A DNA stretch of 12,109 nucleotides, taken from Acidimicrobiales bacterium. GTDB taxonomy: Bacteria; Actinomycetota; Acidimicrobiia; Acidimicrobiales; RAAP-2. Shown here in pieces: positions 1,876 through 8,694 of the stretch. Below the pieces are notes generated by a model, which was not told the DNA's origin, did no database searches, and saw only the letters and a program-made list of their open reading frames with translations. Location of the stretch: positions 1 to 12,109 of the forward strand of contig JASHWO010000186.1 in assembly GCA_030044045.1 (NCBI GenBank), read 5' to 3'. The translations under genes were made by a program, and so were the position numbers. Positions within the stretch are counted from its first letter, which is position 1, and every line of letters begins with the position of its first letter.

Positions 1876-2736
1876 GTGATCGACCTGCACACCCACTCCA
1901 CCTGCTCGGACGGCACCGACCCACCGAGCCACCTCCCCGAGTTGGCCGTCGGGGCCGGGTGCACCGCCCTGGCCCTCACCGACCACGACACCCTGGCCGG
2001 GGTGGCCGCTGCCCGGGCCCGGGCCGCCGAGCTGGGCGTGGCCCTGGTCCCCGGCTGTGAGGTCTCCTGCGCCTTCCGGGGGGGCAGCGCCCACGTGCTC
2101 GTCTACTTCGTGGAGCCCGGCGACGGGCCACTCCAGGACGAGCTGGCCCACCTGCAGCGGGACCGGGTGGCCCGGAACCGGGTGCTGGTGGAGAAGCTGG
2201 TGTCGCTGGGCGTCCCCGTCACCTACGAGGAGGTGGTGGCCGAGGCGGCGGGCGAGGAGAGCGCCGGGCGGCCGCACGTGGCGGCGGTGCTGGTCCGTCA
2301 CGGCGCCGCCGAGTCCATCCCCGACGCCTTCGACCGCTGGCTGGCCAGCGGCCGCCCGGCCCACGTGCCGAAGGCCCGGGTGGCCCCGGCCGAGGTGGCG
2401 CGGCTGGCCCGGGCGTCGGGCGGGGTGGCGGTGCTGGCCCACCCCCTTACCCTGGGGCTGGGTCCCGGGGAGCTATCGGCGGCCGTGGCCGAGCTGGCCG
2501 AGGCCGGGTTCGCCGGCATCGAAGCCGTCTACGGGCGCTACACGCCGAACGAGCGGGCCGGCCTTTGCGACCTGGCCCGGCGGCACGGGCTGGTGGCCAC
2601 CAGCGGGTCCGACTACCACGGCACGGTCAAGCCGGACCTGTCGGTGGGGACCGGCCAGGGTGACCTGCGGGTGCCCGACGACGTGGTGGCCGAGCTGGCA
2701 GCCCGGGCGACCGAAGGAGGGCGACGTGGGCGCTGA
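1876..2736 (+). CDS. PHP-domain phosphoesterase, YciV/RNase AM (TrpH) family
   Basis: The 286-residue product has the complete metal-binding set of PHP phosphoesterases: HTH at residues 5-7 and D12 in the SDG motif, DHD at 36-38, E62, H73, GRPHVA with H134, AHP with H189, and GSDYH with D246 and H248. Length and motif order match E. coli YciV (RNase AM), which trims RNA 5' ends, and the related 3',5'-nucleoside bisphosphate 5'-phosphatases; which substrate this one uses cannot be told from sequence. It is a soluble cytoplasmic protein with no signal peptide. The start GTG 1876 begins directly with the family's MIDLHTHS; there is no visible ribosome site, suggesting a leaderless message. It diverges from purF with 140 bases between starts, and its last 11 bases overlap the HMA gene, so the two are likely cotranscribed. 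Confidence 0.9.
   Translation: MIDLHTHSTCSDGTDPPSHLPELAVGAGCTALALTDHDTLAGVAAARARAAELGVALVPGCEVSCAFRGGSAHVLVYFVEPGDGPLQDELAHLQRDRVARNRVLVEKLVSLGVPVTYEEVVAEAAGEESAGRPHVAAVLVRHGAAESIPDAFDRWLASGRPAHVPKARVAPAEVARLARASGGVAVLAHPLTLGLGPGELSAAVAELAEAGFAGIEAVYGRYTPNERAGLCDLARRHGLVATSGSDYHGTVKPDLSVGTGQGDLRVPDDVVAELAARATEGGRRGR
2714..2720 (+). promoter_or_regulatory. Strong ribosome binding site for the HMA gene
   Basis: AAGGAGG, inside the 3' end of the PHP gene, lies 5 bases before GTG 2726. It decides the start of the small HMA protein and supports translation from the PHP message. Confidence 0.8.
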
Positions 2737-3052
2737 CGCGGCCGGCGAGGGGCAGGGGCCCCTCGCCTCGGAGGAGCCGGCCATCCGGGAAGGCCGCAGT
2801 GGGGCCCCGGGCGGGCCGGACGGCACGGTGGCGGTGCTGGCCATCGAGGGCATGCACTGCGGATCCTGCGCCGCGCTGGTCGAGGAGACCCTGGTCGAGG
2901 ACCTCGGCGTGGCCCGGGCCGACGTCGACCTCGAGTCCGGCCGGGCCACCGTGGCCTACGACCCGGCGCTGTTCGCCGTGGCCGACCTCTGCGACGCCGT
3001 GGTGGCCGCCGGCTACACGGCCACCCCGGTCGACCCCGCGCCCGGGATCTGA
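2726..3052 (+). CDS. Small HMA-domain heavy-metal-binding protein (CopZ-like)
   Basis: This 108-residue protein has one heavy-metal-associated domain from about residue 34 to 103, with the metal site GMHCGSC at 42-48 (C45 and C48) and the typical C-terminal AVVAAGY segment. The first 33 residues are a Gly/Pro/Glu-rich extension not found in the minimal ~70-residue copper chaperones. HMA proteins of this kind bind Cu(I) or related soft metals through the CxxC pair and hand them to P-type ATPases or sensors; the metal here is inferred as copper, not shown. The start is GTG 2726, placed by AAGGAGG 5 bases upstream. It overlaps the end of the PHP gene by 11 bases in another frame. No P-type ATPase is in the window. 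It is followed by a hairpin terminator and then the membrane-protein operon. Confidence 0.88.
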   Translation: MGADAAGEGQGPLASEEPAIREGRSGAPGGPDGTVAVLAIEGMHCGSCAALVEETLVEDLGVARADVDLESGRATVAYDPALFAVADLCDAVVAAGYTATPVDPAPGI

Positions 3053-3120: not shown

Positions 3121-3149
3121 TTGACTCAACGGATGACGGTATGTAGTAC
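3121..3149 (+). promoter_or_regulatory. Sigma-70-like promoter of the membrane-protein operon
   Basis: TTGACT at 3121-3126 and TAGTAC at 3144-3149 are separated by exactly 17 bases. The -10 lies within the palindrome at 3142-3153. The start codon of the first gene is about 75 bases further on. Confidence 0.6.
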
Positions 3150-3162
3150 TACACCAAGTAGT
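3142..3162. promoter_or_regulatory. Palindromic operator candidate (BlaI/CopY-type half-sites)
   Basis: TGTAGTACTACA at 3142-3153 is a perfect 12-bp palindrome covering the -10. A further GTAGT at 3158-3162 forms a second inverted pair with ACTAC at 3148-3152 (5-base gap). The TGTA/TACA-type half-sites resemble those of BlaI/MecI/CopY repressors (cop box TACAnnTGTA), though the order of halves differs in the 12-mer. A repressor of that family is encoded at 6939-7355. Binding is inferred. Confidence 0.55.
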
Positions 3163-3218
3163 TGAACAGCGCGACGGCCGCATCGGGCTCCGACCCGGCG
3201 GGTCCGGCAGCGGGCAGC

Positions 3219-3229: not shown

Positions 3230-4330
3230 TTGTACCACGTCGACGACTCGGCCATCCCGCCCGCGGTCGTTGCCCTCCCGGCTGTCGCCCCGGCGATCAG
3301 CCCGGCGATCAGCCCGGCCCCGACCCTCCCGGGCTCCGGCCTCCCAGCCGTCACCGGCGCGCCAGCGGGAGCCGGTGGGCCGGCGGGGGCGGGGCCACCG
3401 GGCTGGCGGCGGTGCCTGCAGCTCACCCTCGGGCTGACCTGGCTGCTCGACGGGATCCTTCAACTCCAGGCCTGCATGTTCGTACCCGGCCGGCGCGGGC
3501 TGAGCGGCATGCTGGCCGGCGCGGCTGCCGGCAACCCGCGCCCGGTGGCCTCCAGCATCACCTGGTTCGCCGGGGTGGTCGCCCACCACGCGGCGGTGGC
3601 CGGCGCCGCCTTCGCCCTCGTCCAGATCCTGATCGGCCTGGGCATCGCCTGGCGCCCGGCGGTGAAGCCGGCGCTGGCCGTCTCGGTGACCTGGTCCCTC
3701 GCCGTGTGGTGGTTCGGGGAGGGGCTGGGGGGCGTGTTGCACGGCGCCGGCACCCCGATGGCCGGCGGCCCCGGGGCCGTCCTCTTCTACGCGTTGCTGG
3801 CCATCGTGCTCTGGCCCACGCTGGCGGACCGGTCCAGCCCCTTCGCCGCCGCCGGCGCCGTCGGAGCCCGGGCCGCCCGGGCGGTCTGGGCGGCAACCTG
3901 GACGCTGCTGGCACTGCTGTGCCTGCTCGGGTCGGGTCGGGCACCGTCGGGCGTGCGCGGCGTGATCATCACCGTCGGCTCAGGCCAGCCCGGATGGCTC
4001 AGCGCCATCGACCGCCACGCCGCCTCGGCACTCGGCGGCGCCGGCCTGGTGGTGGCCGTGGCGCTCGCCGCCGCGTGCCTGGCCATCGCAGCCAGCGTGT
4101 ACTTCCCGGCGTGGGCGACCCGAACGGCACTGGCGGCGGCCATCACCGTCTCGCTGGCCATCTGGGTGGTCACCGAGAACTTCGGCACCATCCTGGCCGG
4201 CGGGGCCACCGACCCCAACTCGGGCCCCCTACTGGTGCTGCTGGCCCTCGCCTACTGGCCCGTCCGGCCGACCCCGATCACCGCCACCACGCCGTGCGCC
4301 GTGGTCGCCGCGCCCCTGGAGATGGCCTGA
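3230..4330 (+). CDS. Polytopic membrane protein with two tandem repeated modules
   Basis: This 366-residue protein of unknown function starts at a TTG. Residues 1-58 are a Pro/Ala/Gly-rich head, partly made by a 12-base tandem DNA repeat. The rest is hydrophobic, with about seven to eight probable membrane segments, and consists of two copies of one module (about 66-198 and 221-346). The best-matching parts are A148-P196, with WWFGEGLGGVL and a C-terminal LLAIVLWP, and A300-P344, with WVVTENFGTIL and LLALAYWP. The first module has a HH pair at 119-120 and a CMF segment at 82-84. I recall similar unnamed actinobacterial membrane proteins near DUF5134 genes, but no function is known to me. It is first in an operon: the DUF5134 gene begins 2 bases after its stop. 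The promoter overlaps a palindrome. A role in metal handling is inference from context. Confidence 0.75.
   Translation: MYHVDDSAIPPAVVALPAVAPAISPAISPAPTLPGSGLPAVTGAPAGAGGPAGAGPPGWRRCLQLTLGLTWLLDGILQLQACMFVPGRRGLSGMLAGAAAGNPRPVASSITWFAGVVAHHAAVAGAAFALVQILIGLGIAWRPAVKPALAVSVTWSLAVWWFGEGLGGVLHGAGTPMAGGPGAVLFYALLAIVLWPTLADRSSPFAAAGAVGARAARAVWAATWTLLALLCLLGSGRAPSGVRGVIITVGSGQPGWLSAIDRHAASALGGAGLVVAVALAAACLAIAASVYFPAWATRTALAAAITVSLAIWVVTENFGTILAGGATDPNSGPLLVLLALAYWPVRPTPITATTPCAVVAAPLEMA
3291..3314 (+). repeat. Two tandem copies of a 12-base unit in frame
   Basis: CGGCGATCAGCC occurs twice back to back and encodes the AISP-AISP segment in the Pro/Ala-rich head of the membrane protein. In-frame slippage repeats of this sort are tolerated in linkers. 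Confidence 0.85.
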
Positions 4331-4332
4331 CC

Positions 4333-5070
4333 GTGGCCGACCCGGCCTGGCTCGGCTACGGCTTCGCCGCGCTGATGACGGCGGTCGGCGCCTTCTCGCT
4401 CACCCGCCTGGCAGCCGTCCCCCCGGCCGGCCGCGGGCGCCGCCATCCGGACATCACCACCGGCCATGTCCTGATGGCCTTCGCCATGGTCGGGATGCTC
4501 GTCCCCCGCTGGAACGTGCTGCCGGTCGGCCTGTGGGAGCTGGTGTTCGCCGTCATGGCCACGTGGTTCCTGGCCCAGGCCGTGCAGGCGACGACCGGCC
4601 GCACCACGGCCCGCCGCGGCATGGCCGCACGGGCCGGCCGGAGTAGGAGCCACGCCCGTCACTACCTCGTCCACGCGGTGATGGCCTGCACCATGCTCTA
4701 CACGTACTGGCTCGGCATGCCGGTGGCTGTGGTACCGCGTCCGGGCGTCGGCGGTATGTCCGGCTCGCCGGCCGGTGCCGGGGACCCTGGACTGACCTTG
4801 CTGTTCATGACCATGCTGCTGGCATCGGCGGTACGGCAGCTCGACGGGGTCGAGCGGGCGGCACCCCGACGGCCGGCAGCGCTGGCCGCCACCGGGGCGG
4901 CAGGCAGCGCCCTGGGTGTGGGCGCGACCGGAAGCGACGGCCCGGCAGGATGCGTGGGCGCGGCGCCGGCCGACCCGGTGGCGTGCCCCTGGCTGGCGTC
5001 CCCGCTCGAGGTCGCCTGCCACGTCGCCATGTGCCTGGCCATGGCCTACATGCTCGTCCTCATGCTCTGA
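4333..5070 (+). CDS. DUF5134-like membrane protein with three HxxMxxxM motifs
   Basis: The product is 245 residues from GTG 4333, 2 bases after the preceding stop; a GGAG lies about 11 bases upstream. It has roughly five or six hydrophobic segments with a basic loop near 89-109 and a less hydrophobic Gly/Ala-rich stretch near 190-220. It resembles the actinobacterial DUF5134 family, which has no assigned function. The striking part is H-x2-M-x3-M three times, each within a hydrophobic segment: H45/M48/M52, H114/M117/M121 (with H110 also near) and H230/M233/M237, with extra Met and Cys beside them (M55, C119, C229, C234, M240, M244). One turn spacing puts these side chains on one helix face, fitting a soft-metal site such as Cu(I). 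That role is inference; DUF5134 membership is from memory of the family's look. Confidence 0.75.
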   Translation: MADPAWLGYGFAALMTAVGAFSLTRLAAVPPAGRGRRHPDITTGHVLMAFAMVGMLVPRWNVLPVGLWELVFAVMATWFLAQAVQATTGRTTARRGMAARAGRSRSHARHYLVHAVMACTMLYTYWLGMPVAVVPRPGVGGMSGSPAGAGDPGLTLLFMTMLLASAVRQLDGVERAAPRRPAALAATGAAGSALGVGATGSDGPAGCVGAAPADPVACPWLASPLEVACHVAMCLAMAYMLVLML

Positions 5071-5470: not shown

Positions 5471-6552
5471 CTTTCCTCCGTCCGCGTGGCCACTTCGGTA
5501 GCCCGTCGTTGGTGCCTACTGGCTAGGGTGGCAAAGCAGGCATCGGCGATTCCCGCCCCGATCCATGCGTGATCCTCGTTGAACTCTTTCGCGAGGGAGT
5601 CCACGGCAAGGAAACCAAAGATGATCGGTTGATCAACAGGTGCGTCTTGCGCGTCTATCTGACGAAGATCAATCTGAATCGGCCACACGATCGTCGAGTT
5701 GTATAGAGCAGTAGGTGTACCCTGTGGTCAGCTCGTAATGCAGAAGTCATGATTTTCCTCGTACTCCCGCTCGATGTCCTTGACGAGAATCCACTTAGTA
5801 GTCGAGGAGTGGAGCCAGAGTTCACGAAAGCAGTAGCTCTTTACGAGTGGCTTCGGCTCTCGATCGGTCTTTGGTGGATGGACTTTCTCTGTCCTTTGAA
5901 GGGTTCGGTACACGACTGTGTCGATGGGGACGGTACTGCCTGACGTTCCTGACGTTCCGAGCGCCTTCGATGGAACAATCTCCTTGATGCAGGCACGACA
6001 CGGCTCGTCGATCATCTCCGTGAACAATTGAGCGATATGGTTGACAACCCACTTTATACGCTCGCCGAAGTCTTCCCCCCCGCCCTCAGTGAGAGACCAA
6101 CTGCAGAAGCGAAGGTGATGATGTACTCGATGTAATTGCTCTGCAATCCGCCCATCGATGCCTCTGCCAGACTCGACCCCCCGAAGTCGTGCTTCGGCAT
6201 CTTCTGCCTGAGATCGTACGGTTCGGAGATCGGTTTTCAATTTGGCGATTTTTTCCCTGTTTTGATCGGCCTGAACCGTGAGCATTGCTGACGCGACTAC
6301 GATCACGATGACAAAAGTAACGCCGATGACAGCGATGATGACGCCACGATAAGGATATATAGACCCGATAGCTAGGGCGCTGGCCGCAATTAGGGCCAAC
6401 AAAGCATCGGTCCACCGACCTATCCGCTCTCTGATACGGAGGCAGAATCCCCCGAGTCGCTTGAACTTACGACGGAACCATCCTGTAGCAGGCTTCGTGG
6501 CATCCGGCTCCTGGCGGGCCTGGCCCGGTACCTCGGATCCCCCACGATTCAT
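5389..6552 (-). pseudogene. Two-TM coiled-coil protein interrupted by one in-frame TGA
   Basis: From ATG 6552 the frame gives 274 residues, stops at TGA 5730-5728, then continues in the same frame for 112 codons to 5389. The first part has a basic N-terminus, two membrane segments (about 49-66 and 70-91), a coiled coil (about 94-128) and the start of a globular domain with C185/C188 in EPCRACIKEI. The second part reads on naturally: YNSTIVWPIQIDL, then PIIFGFLAVDS and IGAGIADACFATL. Together these look like one GAF-like sensory or effector domain with the stop between two strands; that fold is my guess from strand pattern. A recent nonsense mutation, a sequencing error or stop readthrough would all explain it. 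The DNA here is visibly lower in G+C than its neighbours, suggesting transfer. An upstream ATG at 6636 is possible but lacks a good ribosome site. Confidence 0.65.
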
Positions 6553-6938
6553 GCAGACAGGATACCCTGTGTCTCTCCTGGTTGGTCGAGGCCCTTCGCG
6601 TCGCAGCAAACGAAGGTGACCAGGGTGAACATCCATCTCAAAGCCTTGAGGACCTCATAGACCGAGCGGCCGCGCTGCGAGCCCGCCAGACCCGGATGGA
6701 TGGGTGCCGTCGGTTTGGTACGAGGGGCTCAGGACGAACTTGACCAGCGCGCGTCGCAGTACCCGACGCGACGATGGACGCTCGGCCCCTGGTCGCCGGC
6801 CTACGTAAGGTCCACATCGGCGAGGCTGGTCGTCCAGTGCAACTGGTCTGAGTTCCGGCCGCTGCAACCTGGCGGTCCCCCCACCGGCAACCACCGCTGC
6901 TCGACCGGGCCCGGCCGGCGCGGGATGATGGGACTGCC
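6553..6938. other. Intergenic block between divergent genes, no gene seen
   Basis: This 386-base stretch separates the interrupted minus-strand gene from the plus-strand repressor gene. G+C rises sharply from left to right through it. The only structure I see is a 7-bp stem, CGCGTCG at 6750-6756 and CGACGCG at 6764-6770 with a 7-base loop. Open frames on both strands here are short and do not resemble proteins I know. No copy of the TGTAGTACTACA palindrome is present, so self-regulation of the repressor through that same site is not evident. Confidence 0.5.
6559..6564 (-). promoter_or_regulatory. Candidate -10 hexamer, leaderless start of the two-TM gene
   Basis: On the minus strand TATCCT ends exactly 6 bases before ATG 6552, which would put the transcript start at the start codon. 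An AGGAGAG lies further upstream but too far to act as a ribosome site. No convincing -35 is seen. Confidence 0.4.
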
Positions 6939-7355
6939 ATGCCGGTCGCCTGCACCAACCCGAAGTGCTCCTGCTCGCCCTGCCTCTGCGGTGACACCTG
7001 CAAGTGTGGCGGCGGGAGCAAGCTCGGCGAGCTGGAGCGCCAGGTGATGGACGTGCTCTGGGCCTCCTACGGCCGGGAGGTCACCGGGCGGGACGTGGCC
7101 GCGGCCCTCCCCGCCTACGCCCACACCACCGTGGTCACCGTCCTGAACCGCCTCTCCCGCAAAGGCGCGGTGCGCCGGCACATCGAGGGGCGCACGGCTC
7201 GCTTCGCCGCCATCGACACCCAGGCCGCCCGGGCGGCGGCGGCCATGCGCGAGGCGCTGGAGGCCAGCGGCGACCCGGGCGCCGCCCTCGGCCGGTTCGT
7301 CCGGACGCTCGCCCCGGACGAGGCGGCCACCCTCCGCCGATCGCTCGACCGCTGA
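6939..7355 (+). CDS. BlaI/MecI/CopY-family repressor with metallothionein-like Cys-rich head
   Basis: The 138-residue protein has a winged-helix DNA-binding domain typical of the BlaI/MecI/CopY family from residue 29: LGELERQVMDVLWASYG, then TVVTVLNRLSRKGAVRR (recognition helix and wing, about 70-88) and a helical C-terminal dimer part. Before it, residues 1-28 carry seven cysteines: C5, C10, C12, C15, C17, C21 and C23, i.e. CxCxxCxC followed by CxC, a pattern like bacterial metallothioneins (SmtA-type CxCxxCxC). CopY proteins have a CxCxxxxCxC metal site at the C-terminus; here a Cys cluster is at the N-terminus. This suggests a repressor that senses Cu(I), Zn or a similar ion directly. ATG 6939 is the only in-frame ATG near; the ribosome site is weak. 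No M56 antirepressor peptidase, the usual BlaI partner, is in the window. Confidence 0.88.
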   Translation: MPVACTNPKCSCSPCLCGDTCKCGGGSKLGELERQVMDVLWASYGREVTGRDVAAALPAYAHTTVVTVLNRLSRKGAVRRHIEGRTARFAAIDTQAARAAAAMREALEASGDPGAALGRFVRTLAPDEAATLRRSLDR

Positions 7356-7413: not shown

Positions 7414-8694
7414 TCAGGGCCCGAGCAGGGCGGCGGGTACGACGGCGATGCCATCGGGCCGGCGGTAGGCGTCGGTGCCGGTGGTGACGATGACCGCGTC
7501 GAGCAGATCATCGCCGAGCCGATCAGCAAGCCAGTGCAGATGGCGGACCTCTCGCTCGCCCACGGTGTGGGCGAGCTTCACCTCGACGGCGAGCACGCGA
7601 TGGTCACCTCGCTCGACGATGAGGTCGACCTCGTGCTCGCCGGCGTGGGTCCGCAAGTGGCGGACCTGGGCCTCGGCGCCTTGGGCGTAGACCCGGACGT
7701 CGAGGGTGACGAGGGACTCGAACAGTTGCCCGAGCAACGTCGTATCCCGAGTGACGACGGGCCCTGCCGGTCGACCCTCCAAGAGCGCGCCGAGATCTGC
7801 TCCGAGAAGTCGGGCGGCCAACGCGGGGTCGACGAGATGGTGCTTGGGCGCCGATCCGAGGCGGCGGAGATGGTTCCGGGTAGGCAACCACGCAGGGACG
7901 GGGTCGAGGATCCACAGCCGCTGGAGGATGCCACGGTAGATCTGAGTGGTCGTCTTGGCGGGCTTGTCGGCTTCACCGGGCGTGGCCGCGTCGCGTACGG
8001 CGTCATAGGAGGCGGTCATCGCGGTCGCGGCAGCGTAGGCCCCCAGCCAGCGGCGCAGGGTGTCGGGACTGCGAACGGTGTGCTGCATCTCAGGCACGTC
8101 GCGGTCGATGATCTGGTCCAGGTAGCCGTCGAGCTGGGCGCGTACCGCTCGTTCGGGGAGGCCGCGCAGGCCCGGCAGCCCGGACGCGCAGATCTCTCGT
8201 GCGTAGTCGGCCAGGGAGACCTGGGTGCTGCCGGCGATCGGATCCCGTCGACCGCTCAGCAGCGCGGCGAGGCTCACGCTCGGTGCGACCCCGGTGCGTT
8301 CCACCAGGGTGAGCGGGCGCATCCGGACCCGTACGATGCGGCCCGCCCCCGAGTGAATGCCCGGATCGCGGGGCGTCGCCGAGCCGGTGAGAAGGAACCG
8401 GGATGGGATGGGGTCGTCATCGACCGCTCGACGTACCAGGTCCCAGGACTGGGGAAGCCGTTGCCATTCGTCGATGAGCACCGGTGGTGGGCCGGCGACG
8501 ATCCGGTACGGGTCGGCCAGGGCGACCTCGAGCGCTCCTGGGCGGTCGAGGGCGTGGACGGTGGCTGCTCGACGACGCGCGGTGGCCGTCTTGCCGACGC
8601 CCTTGGCCCCTTCGAGGGAGAGCGCAGGCAGGACCGGCAGGAGCTCGTCGAGCGCCGCGTCGACCACGCGGCGGACGTACTCCCGGGGGACCAC
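7414..8694 (-). CDS. AAA ATPase with C-terminal DUF4143 nuclease-like domain
   Basis: The 426-residue product has an N-terminal AAA_14-type ATPase: Walker A GAKGVGKT at 29-36, Walker B VLIDEWQ at 72-78 and FLLTGSA at 100-106. A helical linker leads to a C-terminal DUF4143 region containing a PD-(D/E)xK-type core: GQLFESLV, D357 in HEVDLIVE, and E371-x-K373 in AVEVK. This architecture is widespread, often strain-variable and patchily distributed in bacteria and archaea; its biological role is not established, though a nucleic-acid role is suggested by the fold. The start is GTG 8694, which begins with VPREYV as in relatives; it has no ribosome site but a TAGCGT 7 bases upstream. The gene lies alone, convergent with the repressor gene, 88 bases downstream of the purL stop, and may be a late insertion in the purine cluster. 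Confidence 0.87.
   Translation of the reverse strand: MVPREYVRRVVDAALDELLPVLPALSLEGAKGVGKTATARRRAATVHALDRPGALEVALADPYRIVAGPPPVLIDEWQRLPQSWDLVRRAVDDDPIPSRFLLTGSATPRDPGIHSGAGRIVRVRMRPLTLVERTGVAPSVSLAALLSGRRDPIAGSTQVSLADYAREICASGLPGLRGLPERAVRAQLDGYLDQIIDRDVPEMQHTVRSPDTLRRWLGAYAAATAMTASYDAVRDAATPGEADKPAKTTTQIYRGILQRLWILDPVPAWLPTRNHLRRLGSAPKHHLVDPALAARLLGADLGALLEGRPAGPVVTRDTTLLGQLFESLVTLDVRVYAQGAEAQVRHLRTHAGEHEVDLIVERGDHRVLAVEVKLAHTVGEREVRHLHWLADRLGDDLLDAVIVTTGTDAYRRPDGIAVVPAALLGP

Follow-up and report, generated by a model that had tools for sequence, protein, structure and literature searches.

The window analyzed here, a 12,109-nucleotide stretch of DNA, encodes a 138-residue BlaI-family repressor (6939..7355, + strand) whose DNA-binding domain is preceded by a seven-cysteine module resembling metallothionein. 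The protein is probably a one-component repressor, most likely responsive to Cu(I), in which the N-terminal thiolate cluster serves as the sensor, and from sequence comparisons we strongly infer that it silences the MEM1-DUF5134 operon through a dyad. The known switches of this single repressor fold are a C-terminal metal site (CopY) and proteolysis (BlaI). A metallothionein-like cluster at the N-terminus, adjacent to the DNA-reading head, would, if true, constitute a third switch and would bear on how allostery is re-plugged into the same scaffold. The analysis also yields a testable candidate operator together with a copper-linked MEM1-DUF5134 target operon, as well as a widespread type of Cys-rich protein that stands alone and is often encoded before CsoR-type genes.

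Structure of the repressor and its cysteine module

The repressor open reading frame matches PF03965 (Penicillinase_R) over residues 29–137 (64.2 bits, above the cut-off of 22.6, with E = 1.8e-17 in the Pfam search), in agreement with the original prediction, made from the DNA sequence, that a BlaI domain begins at residue 29. The closest solved structure both by sequence (E = 7.9e-12) and by fold is M. tuberculosis BlaI (Rv1846c, PDB 2g9w), which a Foldseek search with the repressor model ranked first (E = 1.5e-5), followed by the MecI entries 1sd7, 1okr and 1sax. The TM-scores against these BlaI/MecI structures were just 0.43–0.53 with rmsd values of 6.6–8.8, which we think reflects differing placement of the two subdomains. 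On the basis of PF03965, the predicted structure and Foldseek, residues 29–138 (7023..7352, +) were assigned to a BlaI-type winged helix with C-terminal helices. The winged helix is confident in the AlphaFold model (block-mean pLDDT 86–92 for residues 31–90), and its first helix spans residues 28–42. Residues 1–30 form a low-confidence coil (block-mean pLDDT 51–54) that leaves the module without predicted structure. Residue 5 of M. tuberculosis BlaI aligns to residue 27 of the query, an alignment that leaves no room for the module in that protein.

The module (CTNPKCSCSPCLCGDTCKC, residues 5–23, 6951..7007, +), defined by its Cys pattern and conservation, extends over 19 residues from Cys5 to Cys23 and is connected to the BlaI domain by a Gly-rich linker. 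Translation of 6939–7355 places the cysteines at residues 5, 10, 12, 15, 17, 21 and 23, exactly as had been proposed; the segment originally singled out, 6939–7010, corresponds to residues 1–24. The DNA pattern for the seven cysteines has a single match in the window and none in 200 shuffles. The module of the window protein had no match in Pfam, and a PDB search with a 28-residue module query found no matching solved metallothionein.

Homologues were sought among 5.8 billion proteins, which gave 19 rows, one of them the query. Thirteen of these have the full N-terminus, and all thirteen retain the seven cysteines as well as Pro14 and Gly18; P0019 is a distant BlaI protein that lacks the module. 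Together with ten proteins from the genomes of one bacterial family, these thirteen make up the 23 module-bearing proteins, every one of which keeps all seven cysteines and matches C-x4-C-x-C-x2-C-x-C-x2,3-C-x-C. The spacing comprises 19 residues in 16 proteins and 18 residues in seven, with the seven cysteines intact in both forms. Beyond the module, 20 of the 23 have no cysteine and three have one. The predicted cysteine extension is conserved, CxC-rich like metallothionein and absent from the nearest BlaI relatives. As judged from sequence, the repressor is by its domain a member of the BlaI/MecI/CopY superfamily, and its N-terminal cysteine module is a real, conserved variant.

Distribution of the module-bearing repressors

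The genome set consisted of 172 genomes of the family to which G002 (locus L013) and G001 (locus L050, module-bearing and from Acidimicrobiaceae, Actinomycetota) belong. The repressor was matched at E ≤ 1e-30 in 13 of the 172, ten with the module and three (G409, G410 and G414) without it. Some BlaI match was present in 57 of 395 genomes of the class, and among the best 30 of these 57 only G001 and G234 carry the module; the same two were the only matches at E ≤ 1e-30 among 397 genomes of the order. The BlaI domains of the genome members of the module-bearing clade are 46–64% identical to that of the window protein. A tblastn search of plasmids gave 59 records, all below 60% identity, and the two inspected, H1 and H18, have no module.

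A maximum likelihood tree of 58 winged-helix regions, calculated with the module excluded and rooted at the midpoint, separated the 23 module-bearing rows from all others by a single branch (support 97/87, recovered in 98% of bootstrap trees), which defines a clade provided that the root lies outside these rows. The nearest rows are the Cys-less L174 and L175 (87/78), followed by L176, L139 and L140. Flanks were searched for peptidases by tblastn, with two queries taken from beside Cys-less BlaI genes (above the Pfam cut-off for M48 and below that for M56). Within these flanks, beyond which a distant gene is possible, an M48/M56-type match was found at 19 of 32 Cys-less loci and at none of the 11 module-bearing loci (Fisher 8e-4, kinship ignored), so that no BlaI-BlaR (M56) pair was seen at the latter. 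A peptidase gene adjoins BlaI in four of the five nearest Cys-less relatives, and the gene after BlaI on a Streptomyces plasmid is annotated as M56. This distribution fits a replacement of the peptidase partner by the module.

The MEM1-DUF5134 operon and its copper-type neighbors

MEM1 (3230..4330, +), the first gene behind the dyad, was recognized from its homologues and is hydrophobic by eye; it had no match in Pfam, and its true start is possibly downstream of 3230. The next gene encodes a DUF5134 protein (4333..5070, +; PF17197, E = 3e-12), the probable partner of MEM1. Inspection by eye revealed His/Met motifs of the type H-x2-M-x3-M in this protein and three stretches with mostly conserved His and Met in the alignment of DUF5134 homologues. 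The term DUF5134 was absent from the open-licence literature, among the matches listed. MEM1 homologues are present in 62 of the 172 family genomes. In nine of ten genomes the MEM1 and DUF5134 homologues adjoin the module-bearing gene, in several orientations, and in the tenth (repressor locus L179) the pair is located elsewhere, away from the repressor gene. None of the 32 Cys-less loci has a MEM1 or DUF5134 homologue nearby; the flanks of most of these were 1.5 kb, and the same flanks reveal MEM1 in nine of ten module-bearing loci.

An HMA-domain protein with the sequence GMHCGSC (2726..3052, +; PF00403, E = 4.4e-12) is encoded upstream of the dyad and is perhaps for that reason outside its control. 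HMA matches occur in five of ten loci: three are L177, L178 and L181, and in the other two, L179 and L187, the match falls inside the ATPase or next to it. On the 6-kb contig of L179 the repressor gene faces a P1B ATPase with an HMA domain and CPC, YN and MxxSS motifs, and a similar P1B ATPase in L187 is divergent from MEM1 on the other side of the dyad. We take these motifs to mark Cu(I) transport. Both ATPases (L179:309–3098 and L187:10895–13561) have, by eye, a C-terminal extension of ~110–120 residues after the last hydrophobic segment. HMA or ATPase genes were not seen beside the repressor gene in five of the ten genomes. In G234 (L236), the dyad precedes a MEM1-DUF5134 pair that lies behind genes resembling cytochrome oxidase subunits, as named from sequence. 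Of the co-occurrences that had been put forward as a check, the one with DUF5134 genes was borne out, and those with HMA and Cu-ATPase genes applied at some of the loci.

In the window, the repressor gene is flanked by an unassigned protein with a hydrophobic stretch (5728–6636, −) and by an AAA_14/DUF4143 ATPase (7414–8694, −). The former may be part of an insertion that separates the repressor gene from MEM1-DUF5134.

Candidate operator and promoter

Sites resembling the cop-box TACANNTGTA were not found in 25 upstream regions, and a palindrome search was therefore carried out; ACTAC-N5-GTAGT was noticed before MEM1 by reading the upstream regions. The candidate operator of the window is a TACTAC-N5-GTAGTA dyad with one mismatch (TACTACACCAAGTAGTT, 3147..3163, +), assigned from position and co-occurrence and the sole match in the window at two or fewer mismatches. 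It is overlapped by a perfect palindrome (TGTAGTACTACA, 3142–3153) and by the −10 element of a sigma-70-like promoter, TTGACT-N17-TAGTAC (3121..3149, +), the promoter being read from the sequence. The same promoter-dyad layout is present in L178 and nearly so in L177; it was not seen in the other loci. The dyad is ~3.8 kb from the repressor gene in the window, and no half-sites were seen there before the repressor gene itself.

At the 11 module-bearing loci, TACTAC-N5-GTAGTA with two or fewer mismatches gave 14 matches against a block-shuffle mean of 1.14 and maximum of 4. Twelve precede MEM1 and two, in L184 and L185, lie elsewhere. Half-site spacings of 3, 4 and 6 gave no matches, and spacings of 2, 8 and 11 gave 10, 15 and 4, respectively, probably because the half-site repeats a triplet. 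A dyad precedes MEM1 in nine of the ten genomes with the repressor and in none of 20 MEM1 loci (one of which, L216, has only about 75 bases upstream of the match) from genomes without it, that is, with no match at E ≤ 1e-30 (Fisher 7e-7, kinship ignored); the 30 loci compared are the best 30 of 62. The window, L177, L178, L181 and L186 are the loci in which the dyad was originally noticed. In the remaining genomes it was found in L183, L184, L185, L187 and L236 and not in L182, which against 0 of 20 gives Fisher 9e-5, again without kinship correction, L183–L185 being close relatives of each other. G398 has no dyad before MEM1 within the ~120 bases present on the contig.

Among the 20 dyad-less loci, 18 have no DUF5134 match in the flanks, and most represent more distant MEM1 homologues. 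G450 and G453 alone contain close, full MEM1-DUF5134 pairs; an HMA-bearing, ATPase-sized open frame lies near these pairs, and the repressor match and the dyad are both absent. Loci L234 and L235 comprise MEM1-DUF5134 without repressor or dyad, with HMA-bearing, ATPase-sized frames nearby and, upstream in both, a similar putative secreted protein of 380–400 residues.

Exact ACTAC-N5-GTAGT sites number 12 over the ten repressor genomes and eight precede MEM1, including all seven in G001, G002, G442, G451 and G452; G463 and G482 have no exact site. The pattern read backwards, used as a control, is commoner, with 66 sites in the same ten genomes. The four exact sites away from MEM1, which we take as chance or unexplained, comprise two in G398 (at a rpsG/fusA-like gene junction and near a contig end), one between open frames in G469 and one inside an open frame in G234.

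The dyad is presumably similar to the S. aureus mec operator. Five-base-spaced dyad matches are also present at Cys-less BlaI loci (37 in 31 loci), and the dyad therefore marks the BlaI group and not the module. Inverted repeats five nucleotides apart are described for a Clostridium thermocellum BlaI protein in the available text of PMC8457756, and the available portions of PMC12565901 and PMC4757040 do not spell out an operator sequence for M. tuberculosis BlaI.

The cysteine motif outside BlaI proteins

A DNA pattern for CxxPxCxCxxCxCGxxCxC matched at least 115 stretches in the genome collection and 16 in viral contigs. Most of the matches listed are, by eye, small Cys-rich proteins; they include two BlaI fusions (L013 and L050) and one CsoR-type fusion (L003; PF02583), and the stand-alone proteins listed come from Bacteroidota, Gastranaerophilales, Alphaproteobacteria, Clostridia and Mycobacteriales, among others. 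L106 was rejected as a module protein, as it looks like a low-complexity chance frame. The original prediction needs qualification here: the module is conserved on the BlaI fold, but the seven-Cys motif is not special to it, given the stand-alone small proteins and the CsoR-type fusion. Four stand-alone examples matched no model in Pfam and NCBIfam, and a search with one such protein as the single query found no homologues. L108 and L083 are identical to the window module at 13 of 19 residues, or six of 12 besides the cysteines demanded by the pattern, and three other stand-alone examples share 3–5 of the 12 non-Cys residues. Common descent of the module with the stand-alone proteins is likely from these comparisons.

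A CsoR-type match is present in 37 of 131 pattern loci, among the matches listed. In 35 of the 37 the module ends 78–207 bases before the CsoR-type match on the same strand, and L003 is the fused one; the stand-alone gene ends 87–207 bases before a CsoR-type match in 34 of the 131 listed. Loci with the latter arrangement include L001, L005–L008, L011, L017, L019 and L026–L028, and the genes belong to Gastranaerophilales, Alphaproteobacteria, an Elusimicrobiaceae MAG and others. The fused gene, L003:3971–4351, encodes a CsoR-type repressor with the Cys motif at its N-terminus. Eight of 96 relatives of this fusion were examined: P0020–P0022 share the motif of the window protein, P0054 has another Cys-rich extension, P0023, P0026 and P0049 are without the motif, and P0114 is a short piece with it. 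The hosts of the BlaI fusions belong to one actinobacterial family and those of the CsoR fusion to a proteobacterial lineage. We tentatively propose, as a reading that may well be correct, that the metallothionein-type module has become a portable sensor of metal, joined on two or more occasions to repressors of unrelated fold (BlaI and CsoR), and that in the BlaI branch direct metal sensing at the N-terminus took the place of protease signaling.

A single locus from a Mycobacterium MAG (L083:2880–3640) contains a stand-alone gene with two modules ~110 bases before a separate BlaI gene, an arrangement that looks like the window gene in unfused form. The 16 viral contigs (L116–L131) contain frames with the same Cys pattern. 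A hydrophobic, signal peptide-like N-terminal stretch is present in L118 and L123–L125, and in L122 the motif lies inside a 209-residue stop-to-stop frame.

Proposed mechanism and comparison with known systems

In the proposed mechanism, the BlaI winged helix would bind as a dimer to TACTAC-N5-GTAGTA in the MEM1-DUF5134 promoter region, a step for which co-occurrence and position argue strongly. The seven-cysteine module would form a thiolate cluster with a soft metal, Cu(I) being the likeliest, as suggested by the CxC pattern and the copper neighborhood, and metal loading would alter operator occupancy directly, replacing the peptidase partner of many relatives. By analogy to CopY, release from DNA on Cu(I) loading appears somewhat likelier than metal-dependent co-repression. 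Seven cysteines may permit larger clusters than those of CopY, beside the DNA-reading head. The one-component reading draws on the presence of the module in 23 of 23 proteins, on their single winged-helix clade, and on the co-occurrence of MEM1/DUF5134 and the dyad. It is weakened by the dyads near Cys-less BlaI genes, the ~3.8-kb gap, the five of ten genomes without HMA or ATPase genes, the lack of structure for the module in the model and the lack of a matching solved metallothionein. The Cu(I) reading is based on the P1B ATPases of L179 and L187, the HMA genes, the oxidase-like genes of G234 and the CsoR-type genes behind the stand-alone motif.

A parallel in the way of working is offered by the yeast copper-fist activators Ace1 and Amt1, in which an N-terminal CxC-rich copper cluster controls DNA binding; these are, however, eukaryotic activators with an unrelated fold. 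Bacterial metallothioneins, of which we take SmtA and MymT as the examples to liken to the module, are CxC-rich as well, whereas here the module resides in a DNA-binding protein. CsoR has its own metal site; the CsoR-type fusion (L003, P0020–P0022) bears the same Cys motif ahead of a metal-sensing type of repressor, but on an unrelated fold and by a separate fusion. No description of a BlaI protein with an N-terminal metallothionein-like module was found in the open-licence literature, among the matches listed.

Like the arrangement proposed here, CopY and CopR combine a BlaI/MecI-type winged helix with a short CxC thiolate site and are controlled by metal and not by a protease, according to the available text of PMC5772342 and PMC7253601. 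The metal site of CopY is located at the C-terminus (PMC5772342, available text), as the original prediction had stated, whereas the window protein has seven cysteines before the winged helix and no CxC after it. The operators also differ, RNYKACANNYGTMRNY for CopY compared with the candidate dyad TACTAC-N5-GTAGTA. Membership of the repressor in CopY was rejected, as it has no C-terminal CxC and its score with TIGR02698, the NCBIfam CopY_TcrY equivalog, is 25 bits, below the cut-off of 121.95. In S. pneumoniae CopY, Zn(II) at the C-terminal CxC strengthens operator binding and formation of a Cu(I) cluster weakens it, as described in the accessible part of PMC5772342. In the BlaI-BlaR1 and MecI-MecR1 systems of the same repressor family, repression is instead lost through a membrane protease; control of BlaI/MecI by proteolysis is in line with the available text of PMC7253601. 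PetR-PetP is BlaI-type and copper-responsive, but via proteolysis (PMC12292863 and PMC10141476, available text).

Alternative explanations

The alternative that survives best retains the sensor and reverses its polarity, and it overlaps with the preferred explanation, which leaves polarity open. The metal-loaded module would repress, and MEM1-DUF5134 would function in copper acquisition or oxidase metallation and be expressed in copper scarcity. This is possible, although we do not consider it probable. Such polarity becomes plausible if MEM1-DUF5134 serves oxidase metallation, and it is consistent with the position of the pair directly behind the oxidase-like genes of G234, with the SCO1, Caa3_CtaG and DUF1775 genes that adjoin BlaI in L188, and with the His/Met motifs of DUF5134. 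It is also consistent with the single exact dyad of G414 (L193), the genome of a relative with a Cys-less BlaI-peptidase pair, which lies directly before a SCO1-like gene. Cu-type ATPases can also serve oxidase assembly, but those beside the repressor gene (L179) or across the dyad (L187) fit efflux better. Moreover, Cu(I) causes CopY, the closest relative that senses metal, to come off its DNA (PMC5772342, available text).

Two further alternatives depart from direct sensing of Cu(I). The module could be a metal buffer, a docking site for an HMA chaperone or a stabilizer, with DNA binding governed by another signal. The free-standing copies of the motif, for which a switch role is impossible, agree with this, as do the short, often Gly-rich linker and the low-confidence coil of the model. 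We nevertheless consider it unlikely, as the seven cysteines are kept throughout a clade whose genome members have BlaI domains 46–64% identical to that of the window protein, the module has a single origin on the tree, and none of the 11 module-bearing loci has a peptidase gene nearby. Alternatively, the cluster may sense Zn(II)/Cd(II), thiol oxidation, nitric oxide or an Fe-S cluster. CxC-rich modules in general bind Zn and Cd besides Cu. However, the informative neighbors are copper-type, the stand-alone copies precede CsoR-type genes, and repeated CxC pairs differ from the usual Fe-S sites; this alternative, too, is rather improbable.

An in-frame stop is present upstream of the repressor frame at 6849, no ATG, GTG or TTG occurs between 6849 and 6939, and the next in-frame ones correspond to residues 36 and 37, inside the first model helix; 6939 is therefore the sole available start before residue 36. 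Five of the 19 homologue rows are without the module, P0013, P0014, P0016 and P0018 starting at a Met equivalent to residue 37 and P0017, which has no start codon, at residue 29; these presumably reflect called starts or contig ends. A mis-read start, with a working protein that begins near residue 28, could account for these five rows but is extremely improbable and was rejected on the start-codon scan, the homologue N-termini (in four of the five rows the start falls within the first helix) and the Cys conservation, all 23 module-bearing proteins keeping the cysteine spacing.
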